Assembly: GCA_019638775.1 (NCBI GenBank)
Contig: JAHBTD010000001.1
Coordinates: forward strand, 1,240,001-1,304,000
DNA length: 64,000 nucleotides
Source: Fimbriimonadaceae bacterium
GTDB lineage: Bacteria > Armatimonadota > Fimbriimonadia > Fimbriimonadales > Fimbriimonadaceae
Direction of reading: 5' to 3'
Positions 16,186 to 59,288 of this stretch are shown in pieces (within the stretch, counting starts at the first letter, position 1; each line of letters begins with the position of its first letter). Position numbers and translations under genes: made by a program. The notes beneath the pieces were generated by a model. The model saw only the letters and a list, made by a program, of their open reading frames with translations, was not told where the DNA came from and ran no database searches.

Positions 16186-16301
16186 CGTGGCAGCAAGCGG
16201 AGAGGTAGCGCCCTGGCCATCCGCTAGCTGCCACGGAGGCAACGCCTCCCACACGTCCCACCCCCCCGCAAACGTCATCCTCCCCCTCAACGGGGGAGGA
16301 T
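16186..16301. repeat. Two long hairpins in the gap 16003-16399
   Basis: Hairpin 1: CGTGGCAGC (16186-16194) with GCTGCCACG (16227-16235), with inner AGCGGA/TCCGCT pairing. Hairpin 2: ATCCTCCCCC (16277-16286) with GGGGGAGGAT (16292-16301) around tcaac. Both are non-coding dispersed-repeat types; nothing else is seen in this 397-base gap apart from the operator region. Confidence 0.6.
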
Positions 16302-23689: not shown

Positions 23690-24110
23690 GAGAGTCTGCT
23701 CACAGCAGATTGACCCCCATCCCTCAGTTCGCTGCGCTCACCCTGACACGTCGGGGCAGGCACATCCCTTCCCTAAATGCAGGGGGAAGGGATTCATTCA
23801 AATACTTGTAAGTGCGTCATGCCGAATTCAAGTCAACAGCCCCTCCCCCTGCGAAGCGAGGGGGAGGGGATAAAGGGGTGGGGGTTCTGAAGTTTCCTAA
23901 CTGTGCAAACTTGTGCATTGTAACCGGCAGGGATGGGCGAACTCGACCCCCATCCCCAGTTCGCTGCGCTCACTGATCCCTTCCCCCTCGCTCCGTAGGG
24001 GGAAGGGAGTTTCGGTGCCGTTCCAAGGTTGCTTACCCCTCTTCCCATTCTCGCTTTGCTCATACAGGGACGGGGCTGGGCGAGTTTCACCCATGTGTTG
24101 TAGGCTAGAG
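23690..24110. repeat. Cluster of GC-rich dispersed palindromes
   Basis: The 457-base gap 23670-24126 has no credible gene. It holds two diverged copies of a unit of the type ACCCCCATCCC-CAGTTCGCTGCGCTCA...TTCCC-GGGGGAAGGGA, plus a hairpin CCCTCCCCCTGCG / CGAGGGGGAGGGG around 23840-23869. Similar purine/pyrimidine hairpins recur at about 29850, 31370 and 59215. Confidence 0.55.
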
Positions 24111-35713: not shown

Positions 35714-36595
35714 TTACTTGGCCTTTGGGTGGGCTTTTTCAACCGCTTCGCGAAGTCTTTCGATGCTCACGTGGGTATAGATTTGGGTTGTTTCCAGGCT
35801 CTCGTGACCTAGCAGTTGCTGCACCGTTTTAAGGTCGGCGCCGCCGTCCAAAAGGTGGGTCGCGAAGCTGTGCCTGAGCTTATGAGGGGAGACCTCCGGT
35901 GGTAATCCAATTTGCTTTGCCCACCGCCTGACGACGTTGTAAACCGTGCGCGTGATGATACGACCGCCCAAACGGTTGGTGAATAGAGCTTGGCCCTTCT
36001 TCGGCTCGACTCTTTCCCCCTGGATGTACCGTTCGAGGGCTTCAAGGCAGGGTTTGCCGAACAGCGCGACGCGGTCTTTGTTGCCCTTTCCACGAACCCG
36101 AACCGAGCCCTCCTTGAAGTCGATGTCTGGCAGGTTCATCCCGACGACTTCGCTGACACGCAGGCCAGCCCCGTACATGATTTCGAGAAGGGCACGGTCG
36201 CGGAGGGGGCTCTTCCCCACGTCATCCTGTTCCAAGAGGTCTTCGGTTTGGGCTTGGGAGAGCGCCTTTGGGAGCCGCTTTCGGCGGATCGGGGCTTCGA
36301 GCATTTCGGTGGGGTCTTCAGCGAGGTAGCCCATCTGCTTGCAGAATTTGACGAAGGTTCGGAGCGCGGAAAGCTTGCGTGCGCGGGTGGTGGGGTTGGG
36401 AGCTTTGTGGCGGAGGAAGGTCTGGATACGGAGGGGGGTGAGGGCGCTAAGCCCGACCTCCTGGCTATCCCCGGCAAGAAACTCAGCCAATTGGGAGAGG
36501 TCGGCACCGTAGCTCTTCACCGTGTTTGGCGAACGCTTGGCGCGCTGACTGTCGAGGAACTCCTGGATGGCGGCGTCGAGGTTCGGGGATTTCAC
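35714..36595 (-). CDS. xer: Tyrosine recombinase XerC/XerD type
   Basis: A 293-aa site-specific recombinase, the length of chromosomal Xer proteins. The N-terminal SAM-like DNA-binding domain (residues 1-100) is followed by the catalytic domain: Arg in GLRVSEVVGMNL, Lys in VRVRGKGNKDRVALFG, His-x-x-Arg in SPHKLRHSFATHLL, His in LLGHESLETTQ and the nucleophile Tyr in IYTHVSIERL. It probably resolves chromosome dimers at dif. It is next to ruvAB, a common location. Its upstream region carries five unusual hairpins (36607-36788). Confidence 0.92.
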   Translation of the reverse strand: MKSPNLDAAIQEFLDSQRAKRSPNTVKSYGADLSQLAEFLAGDSQEVGLSALTPLRIQTFLRHKAPNPTTRARKLSALRTFVKFCKQMGYLAEDPTEMLEAPIRRKRLPKALSQAQTEDLLEQDDVGKSPLRDRALLEIMYGAGLRVSEVVGMNLPDIDFKEGSVRVRGKGNKDRVALFGKPCLEALERYIQGERVEPKKGQALFTNRLGGRIITRTVYNVVRRWAKQIGLPPEVSPHKLRHSFATHLLDGGADLKTVQQLLGHESLETTQIYTHVSIERLREAVEKAHPKAK

Positions 36596-36606
36596 TCTCT
36601 TATGCT

Positions 36607-36788
36607 GCCTCCAGACGCGCCGTCTGGGGGCTATGCCAACTACGGCGAAGTCGAATTAGCCTCCAGATTACGAATCTGGAGGCAAGCGCTAAGCCTCCTC
36701 GCTTTAGTCCGAGGAAGATCCCTCCAGAACTGCAGTTCTGGAGGGTCAAAAGATCGGAAGTACCCTCCATATCAGCAGATATGGAGGG
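36607..36788. repeat. Array of five hairpins with constant outer and variable inner stems
   Basis: Unit 1, 36607-36631: GCCTCCAGACG-cgc-CGTCTGGGGGC. Unit 2, 36659-36683: GCCTCCAGATT-acg-AATCTGGAGGC. Unit 3, 36696-36715: TCCTCG / CGAGGA. Unit 4, 36720-36745: CCCTCCAGAACTG / CAGTTCTGGAGGG, a perfect 26-bp palindrome. Unit 5, 36763-36788: CCCTCCATATC-agca-GATATGGAGGG. The outer CCTCC/GGAGG is shared while the inner pairs differ but stay complementary. The array fills the gap between xer and ruvB and leaves no room for a gene. Confidence 0.85.
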
Positions 36789-36811
36789 ATCAGGTGCTGC
36801 AGCGTTACGAA

Positions 36812-37879
36812 CTATAGAAGCTCCTCCTGACCATTGTTCACCCTTTCCACTGGCTTCTCGGGTCGTTTGGGCTGCTCGAATCCGAGGTGCTCGTAGGCGG
36901 CTGGCGTGGCAATGCGGCCTCGGTTAGTGCGTTGGATGAGCGCTTGCTGGATGAGGAACGGTTCGTAGACGTCTTCGATGGTGCCGGAATCTTCGCCGGT
37001 GGTGGCAGAAAGCGTGTCGATCCCGACAGGGCCACCGGCGTATTTTTCGATGATGACGCGCAGAAGCGTTCGGTCCACCCGATCTAAGCCGAGATGATCG
37101 ACTTCGAGCGCATCTAAGGCCTTGTCGGCGATCTTGGAGCTGATGGATTCATGTCCATCAACTTGGGCGAAGTCCCGCACACGACGGAGCAAGCGGTTTG
37201 CAATGCGTGGCGTTCCGCGCGAACGCCGAGCCACAGCTTCTGCTCCTGAGCGGTCTATCCCATAACCGAGTATCCCGGCCGAGCGGGTGATGATCTCAAA
37301 GAGCGCCTGAGCCCCATAAAACTGGAAGTGCATCACGATGCCAAAGCGGTCGCGTAGGGGTCCAGTGAGAAGCCCTTGGCGGGTGGTCGCGCCGATCACG
37401 GTGAACTTGGGGACATCAAGGCGGATCGACCGGGCGGCGGGGCCTTTGCCGATCATGATGTCCACTTTGCAATCCTCCATTGCCGGGTAAAGGATCTCTT
37501 CGACGGGGCGAGCGAGGCGGTGGATCTCGTCGATGAACAGGACCGCGCCCTCTTCGAGGTTGGTGAGGATGCCAACGAGGTCGCCCTGTCGTTCGATGGC
37601 GGGGCCACTCGTGACGTGGACGGGCGCGTCCATCTCGTTGGCGACGATGTGGGCGATGGTGGTTTTCCCGAGGCCGGGGGGACCGTATAGTAAGAGGTGG
37701 TCGAGCGGTTCGCTACGCTGTTGGGCGGCCTTGAGAAAGACAGCAAGGTTCTCTTTGAGCTTCTCCTGGCCGATGAATTCGCTTAACCTTCTTGGGCGCA
37801 AGGAGAGCTCAATGGGGTTCTCCATCGGCTTGCGAATGGGATCTAGGTTTGTGTTGTCGCGTTCGGTCACTTCGCTCAT
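36812..37879 (-). CDS. ruvB: Holliday junction branch-migration ATPase RuvB
   Basis: A 355-aa AAA+ ring helicase subunit that drives branch migration with RuvA. Walker [19 protein letters not shown]; Walker [19 protein letters not shown]; sensor 1: [20 protein letters not shown]; arginine/sensor 2: [15 protein letters not shown]. The C-terminal winged helix ends with [14 protein letters not shown]. It overlaps ruvA by 4 bases, the usual ruvAB coupling. Confidence 0.97.
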
Positions 37880-59141: not shown

Positions 59142-59288
59142 TTGTTGGGGGAGGGCGGAGTTCTGATTTTGGATTGTAGATTCGCTTGAATTGAGTCCCC
59201 GATCTCCGACCTTTACACCTCCTCTCCCTTGAGGGAGAGGCTGTAAGCGTCGCGCACAGGATTAGGGTGAAGAGTTTTGAAATGGGCT

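Follow-up and report, generated by a model that had tools for sequence, protein, structure and literature searches.

Most known REP/RAYT systems come from Proteobacteria, Cyanobacteria, and Bacteroidetes. Those of Pseudomonas fluorescens and E. coli consist of short, mostly extragenic palindromes arranged as inverted doublets (REPINs or BIMEs) and of a Y1 transposase gene that is present in few copies and has the same REPs on its flanks, with each RAYT having its own REP family (PMC3116915, PMC2817692). REPs usually number >100 per genome (PMC2817692), and E. coli BIMEs join unequal, Y- and Z-type halves within one doublet (PMC6006769). The array described here shares this architecture, including Y/Z-like unequal halves. 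It differs in its Armatimonadota host, in a far smaller number of copies, in a foot of the form TA[G/C]-CCTC..GAGG-[C/G]-AT in place of GT[AG]G, and in stems that are perfect rather than bulged.

The REPtron of Stenotrophomonas maltophilia (subclass 2.5; PMC8266576) likewise combines a perfect, small-looped palindrome with a tetranucleotide 5′ foot. In that system, GTAC in place of GTAG abolishes cleavage (PMC8266576), whereas the foot most often found in family A, one of the two REP families of the array, is GTAC. Thus, recognition here must differ in detail. The RAYT here also lies outside subclass 2.5 by motif (NHIH, YIHTNP).

By motif, the RAYTs here are nearest to TnpAY1 subclass 2.6, or RAYT group 5, of Bacteroidetes (PMC6006769). 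The two share the NH[LIV]H, W-Q, and YIH-NP motifs, the absence of GTAG-reading residues, and REP-like structures without GT[AG]G. However, the hairpins are strong here and weak there, and the HuH-Y spacing is ~10 residues shorter, ~71 (H71 to Y142) compared with ~83 in Bacteroidota loci. In addition, the tree separates the Armatimonadota RAYTs as a clade from three Bacteroidota sequences (support 100/100). Hence, neither the HuH-Y spacing of ~82 residues nor the placement with Bacteroidota that marks subclass 2.6 is found. An unpaired GT[AG]G at one foot, which defines the GTAG superfamily (PMC3733652), is also absent. Given the shorter spacing and the separate clade, the array is filed as broad-sense REP doublets, outside both the GTAG superfamily and subclass 2.6.

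The array very probably represents two adjacent REPIN/BIME-like doublets, one of family B and one of family A. These would be non-autonomous palindromes inserted between ruvB and xer and copied by a RAYT/TnpAREP enzyme of the HUH-Y1 fold. This assignment, made by sequence comparison, draws on dispersed and mostly intergenic copies, doublet copying that includes the spacer, covariation, a RAYT gene (RAYT1) with family A flanks in inverted orientation, and the same architecture in many genera.

The array and its two REP families

The window is the whole stretch of 64,000 nucleotides that was analysed (G000:C1:1240001-1304000), part of a 4.3 Mb draft genome (G000). The array occupies positions 36607-36788 and lies between xer and ruvB, upstream of the tyrosine recombinase gene; the two flanking genes are those named in the first-pass annotation. 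The features, in window coordinates, are as follows.

35714-36595, − strand: xer-type tyrosine recombinase gene, a neighbour outside the element
36607-36631, − strand: REP of family B, inner stem GACG, left half of doublet 1; − strand reads GCATAG-CCCCCAGACGGCGCGTCTGGAGG-CAGCAT; model R2 match C1:1276602-1276636 (−)
36659-36683, + strand: REP of family B, inner stem GATT, right half of doublet 1; AATTAG-CCTCCAGATTACGAATCTGGAGG-CAAGCG; model R2 match C1:1276654-1276688 (+)
36696-36715, no strand: weak 6-bp stem (TCCTCG..CGAGGA, loop 8), no recognisable REP, without CCTCC..GGAGG; the third unit of the first-pass annotation
36720-36745, − strand: REP of family A, inner stem GAAC, left half of doublet 2; − strand reads TTTGAC-CCTCCAGAACTGCAGTTCTGGAGG-GATCTT; model R1 match C1:1276715-1276750 (−)
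36763-36788, + strand: REP of family A, inner stem TATC, right half of doublet 2; AAGTAC-CCTCCATATCAGCAGATATGGAGG-GATCAG; model R1 match C1:1276758-1276793 (+)
36717-36793, + strand: doublet 2 as a single REPIN/BIME-like unit, by similarity to doublets at two other C1 loci
36812-37879, − strand: ruvB, a neighbour outside the element

Direct reading and folding identify the four REPs listed above as strong hairpins. The first has arms GCCTCCAGACG and CGTCTGGGGGC with one T.G pair. The second has an 11-bp stem and a loop of 3, the third a loopless 13-bp stem, and the fourth an 11-bp stem and a loop of 4. The segment 36600-36800 folds with z = -8.4 as DNA and -7.6 as RNA, values that none of 200 shuffles equals. 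Five hairpins, all ending in CCTCC..GGAGG or a close variant, had been described at this site. Four units are perfect or near-perfect and carry these ends, while the third is a 6-bp stem only and lacks them. The inner stems quoted at the time are correct on direct reading. The earlier observation is partly confirmed, and its interpretation is partly supported by the results that follow.

Family B is of the form TAGCCTCCAGA..TCTGGAGGCAT and family A of the form GTACCCTCCA..TGGAGGGATC. Sorting of the copies gives the layout GTAC-CCTCCAnAACnGCAGTTnTGGAGG-GATC for family A and TAG-CCTCCAGAnn...nnTCTGGAGG-CAT for family B. Both fit a common register, TA-S-CCTCCA...TGGAGG-S-AT, in which the basal pair is C-G in A and G-C in B. 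The foot is mostly GTAC in family A and NTAG or NAAG in family B, and its final base is paired within the stem. Neither family has the canonical GT[AG]G foot, which counts against the REP/RAYT reading.

The array as a DNA query has 25 matches in its own genome. A genome-wide search for CCTCC..GGAGG palindromes, proposed earlier as a check, finds dispersed copies: CCTCCA-N6-26-TGGAGG occurs 65 times, compared with 7 for the reversed control, part of the 65 being other palindrome families. Covariance models find ~26 family A sites and ~13 family B sites in this genome at E <= 0.01, counts that are partly by construction because training copies came from the same genome. Model R1 (family A) was built from own-genome copies only, and model R2 (family B) from eight own copies and three from a relative, G019. 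The elements are thus dispersed palindromes of 20-40 nt in multiple copies, as are REPs and REPINs, but the copy number is low compared with that usual for REPs and is a point against the assignment. Their location is also extragenic in the manner of REPs. By an ORF-based gene context, 25 of 34 sites lie outside ORFs of at least 120 aa, whereas 86% of random positions of the same loci lie inside. Four of the nine sites within such ORFs belong to the window array; the ORF there is 134 aa long and lies on the other strand from xer and ruvB. The gene context of the copies is co-directional in 13 cases, convergent in 11, and divergent in one. Doublet 2 has no match in phage records.

The first-pass annotation had read the changing inner stems as compensatory variation, a sign of a fold kept under selection or made by a copying mechanism. 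The reading of a kept fold holds. Inner stems covary over the genomic copies of both families. In family A (16 copies), 97.2% of cells are paired, compared with 88.9% after shuffling, and the covariation score is 0.199, compared with 0.059 for shuffled copies and at most 0.049 for slid-partner controls. In family B, 96.7% of cells are paired, with a covariation score of 0.169 against 0.065. The outer CCTCC/GGAGG pairs are nearly invariant, and two-sided changes occur at pairs 8, 10, and 11 of A and at the two innermost pairs of B. The pattern is thus neither unique to this spot nor devoid of covariation, the combination that would have spoken against a maintained fold. Part of the inner-stem variation is systematic: the two REPs of each doublet belong to different subtypes.

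Other palindromes are also present. The window contains further G+C-rich palindromes at 23764-24008, 16277-16301, and 59221-59240 (e.g. CCCCTCCCCCTGCGAAGCGAGGGGGAGGGG). Similar CCCCTC..GAGGGG arms occur at other loci of the own genome and constitute a repeat family distinct from A and B. The palindrome CTCCACCCTTTGGGAGGGTGGAG is present in several copies at G000:C1:591984-592257 and C1:708969-711865 (L031, L034-L036), some of them ~185 bp or 1.2 kb apart.

Inverted doublets

The REPs of the window are oriented B(−)B(+) and then A(−)A(+), forming two inverted doublets of two families. Doublet 1 (B) spans 36607-36683 and doublet 2 (A) spans 36720-36788. Over ~76 bp, doublet 2 is 82-84% identical to C1:902801-903032, a triple tandem, and to C1:1317820-1317897. 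The similarity includes the spacer, so the doublet appears to have been copied as a unit. Inverted pairs copied as a unit, a property of REPINs, are represented by the kin of doublet 2 and by the doublets of G019.

Of 17 inverted doublets inspected, 15 pair unlike subtypes. In the own genome these are three B doublets plus five of family A, counted as doublets or arrays; the other seven are in G019. The two exceptions are a degenerate pair at C1:1150k and one doublet of G061. GAAC or TAAC is paired with TATC or CATC, and GACG with GATT or GACT. All seven inspected doublets of G019 consist of one GACT or GGCT half with a G-C basal pair and one GACG half with a C-G basal pair. The inner stems within the window differ because the halves of a doublet differ by subtype. 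As the halves are usually of different subtypes, the doublet, not the single hairpin, is probably the moving unit.

A bolder proposal, which we consider quite unlikely, is that the REP doublet of this Armatimonadota clade would be a true two-ended single-stranded transposon with systematically unlike ends, distinguished by the innermost pairs and, in G019, by the basal pair. One RAYT would read both ends via the constant CCTC clamp, and the basal and inner pairs would make up a code for end identity, coevolving with the enzyme.

RAYT genes and their flanking REPs

A Y1_Tnp profile search of the own genome identifies two genes above the cut-off, RAYT1 and RAYT2. RAYT1 (G000:C4:147542-148108, 188 aa) scores 40.2 bits against Pfam Y1_Tnp (cut-off 23) and 100.6 bits against NCBIfam NF047646, REP-associated tyrosine transposase (cut-off 80). 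It contains an HxH motif (SNHIH) and the motif YIHTNPV. RAYT1 thus combines the features of a RAYT/TnpAREP, namely a Y1 HUH domain that reaches the NCBIfam equivalog cut-off and the motifs HxH and Y..NP, and is a gene of the RAYT/IS200-like kind that the first-pass annotation had suggested looking for. The clade profile matches PDB 4ER8 (E. coli TnpAREP) at 5e-10; the RAYT1 sequence alone has no match in the PDB.

RAYT1 is surrounded by family A REPs. One copy is located upstream at C4:147497 (−). Downstream, a truncated + copy directly 3′ of the gene is followed by copies at 148163 (−) and 148243 (+). A gene flanked by its own REPs, − upstream and + downstream, is typical of RAYT/TnpAREP and is seen in the own genome and in most homologs with orientable REPs, the upstream side of L095 being an exception. 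A family B-specific RAYT was not found in the own genome, which weighs against the REP/RAYT reading.

RAYT2 (C2:835326) scores 91.2 bits and is surrounded by another palindrome, GGCAGCG..CGCTGCC, as expected if each RAYT has one REP family. This palindrome, GGCAGCGACGAAGCGCTGCCCTCCC, is located at positions 1276-1300, 1810-1833, and 1851-1875 of L025 (G000:C2:835k), and no copies of it were found in the window. A third RAYT-like gene, L113 (G000:C2:925203-925601), has GCGCGAATTTATTCGCGC-type repeats on its flanks (GGGAGTGCGCGAAT..ATTCGCGCACTCCC).

This RAYT clade does not conserve the residues that read GTAG in E. coli (E100, H101, and R104), a further point against the REP/RAYT reading. A loss of these residues by RAYT1 alone, owing to its GTAC foot, was considered and rejected, as the whole clade lacks them, including enzymes with TAG-foot REPs.

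RAYT1-like genes are present in 61 of 113 genomes of the order, and the closest named records belong to Armatimonadetes and Fimbriimonadaceae MAGs. The own genome is the sole one of its genus among the comparison genomes. The hairpin models were scanned over 101 genomes (own and 100 relatives), and RAYT positions were taken from a separate protein search. In five genomes other than the own, the blind models land beside RAYT homologs. Model R1 has such matches at G037:C28:20197/20442/21096, G004:C6:166075/166681/166829, and G061:C142:5825/6457, and model R2 at G016:C1:1052/1287/1928/2038 and G018:C33:19938/20040/20648/20855. These matches, together with the family A flanks of RAYT1, support the option, raised earlier, of REP elements moved by a RAYT encoded elsewhere.

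CCTC..GAGG hairpins number 73 in 66.7 kb of 22 RAYT loci, compared with 7 in 108.8 kb of 29 xer loci from the same group. Copies upstream of the RAYT gene are mostly − and downstream copies mostly +. The recurrent foot at the RAYT loci of the order is NTA[G/C]CCTC..GAGG[C/G]AT, and the inner stem is lineage-specific and fully paired (GGCACG, CACAGT, AACTGC/AACAGC, AACCCT, AACCCG, AGGACG, AGTAGC, and others, each with its complement). The foot deviates in L096 and L101 (CCCGCC) and in L093 (CCCCC), which also counts against the assignment. With near-identical proteins excluded, sister RAYTs have a common inner stem in 4 of 5 pairs on the RAYT tree (permuted mean 0.19; 1 of 200,000 as high), although tree support is moderate for two pairings (L098/L121, 83/79; L086/L090, in an open fork).

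The RAYT-flanking hairpins of L115, L116, L118, and L087 (G016, G004, G067, and G013) have the same foot and loops of 30-55 nt. A 10-bp stem of G016, CCTCCAGACT, is common to the own family B, which has a 3-nt loop; it looks as if family B arose by loop deletion. The basal pair (G-C or C-G) is not supported as a mark of one RAYT clade: it would have to change twice on the tree, and G019 has doublets in which both types are present. Some residue columns separate the three C-G proteins from the G-C group, but the sequences are too few for interpretation.

Mechanism, alternatives, and significance

Judging from work on TnpAREP of E. coli and Stenotrophomonas (PMC8266576, PMC6006769), the RAYT would act on a REP that has folded while single-stranded, probably where the replication fork passes. 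The enzyme would read the foot and stem-loop, cut beside the REP, and rejoin or transfer it. If the enzyme needs a folded REP, self-complementarity has to be kept in the copies, but the sequence of the inner stem is free to drift along with its enzyme.

The elements could instead be dead relics, dispersed long ago by RAYT-type enzymes and now immobile, whose fold survives only through recent copying. This possibility, which is compatible with their identity as REP doublets, seems doubtful to us. Copy numbers are low, several copies are damaged (L047, L040, and unit 1 of the array), and family B has no RAYT of its own in this genome, while the family B-rich G019 has a RAYT fragment near a contig end. 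However, RAYT1 is intact with its catalytic motifs, and the family A copies differ little from one another; those of the triple tandem at C1:902844-903031 are nearly identical.

It is very improbable that the hairpins are RNA elements of a ruvB-xer transcript (a terminator, attenuator, or mRNA stabiliser) and that an RNA role, not mobility, keeps the fold. The co-directional order of ruvB, array, and xer and the folding of the − strand RNA noted above would suit such a role, and PMC3733652 reports REPs elsewhere that are transcribed and function as RNA elements. The same sequences, however, occur in many unrelated contexts, both co-directional and convergent, and relatives lack them at xer. 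An Rfam search with the array returned no family. The terminator reading was rejected: none of the hairpins is a G+C stem followed directly by a T run, no U-tract lies 3′ of any of them, and the sole terminator-like match is weak and at chance level. The array may still have a secondary effect on the ruvB-xer transcript.

That the hairpins are dif- or integron-like recombination sites of the adjacent Xer-type recombinase, as had also been suggested, is scarcely credible: the array is directly upstream of xer and its 11-4-11 palindromes superficially resemble dif arms, but dozens of copies lie at many loci away from this gene, copies cluster at RAYT genes of other genomes, and the linkage to xer kept in relatives that marks Xer/dif sites is missing, with ruvB plus hairpins upstream at 1 of 30 xer loci (the own) and neither in 29 relatives whose xer is 57-68% identical. 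There is thus a strong case against any tie between the array and Xer. The xer/ruvB surroundings are incidental. The arrangement of ruvB followed directly by xer (window 35714-37879) is itself found only in the own genome among the 30 xer loci.

REPIN/RAYT, to which the array is assigned here, is an already known kind of system. The present one is set apart by its Armatimonadota clade, its non-GT[AG]G foot, and its heterotypic doublets. No paper on REP/RAYT in Armatimonadota was found in the open-access literature, where the lineage, end tag, and paired design look undescribed. Homologous RAYTs of many genera stand beside REPs that have one clamp and lineage-specific swaps of the inner stem, and thus constitute a natural mutagenesis series. 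The series bears on how RAYTs recognise hairpins without a GTAG motif, and swaps of stem, foot, and basal pair between sister systems are testable at the bench.
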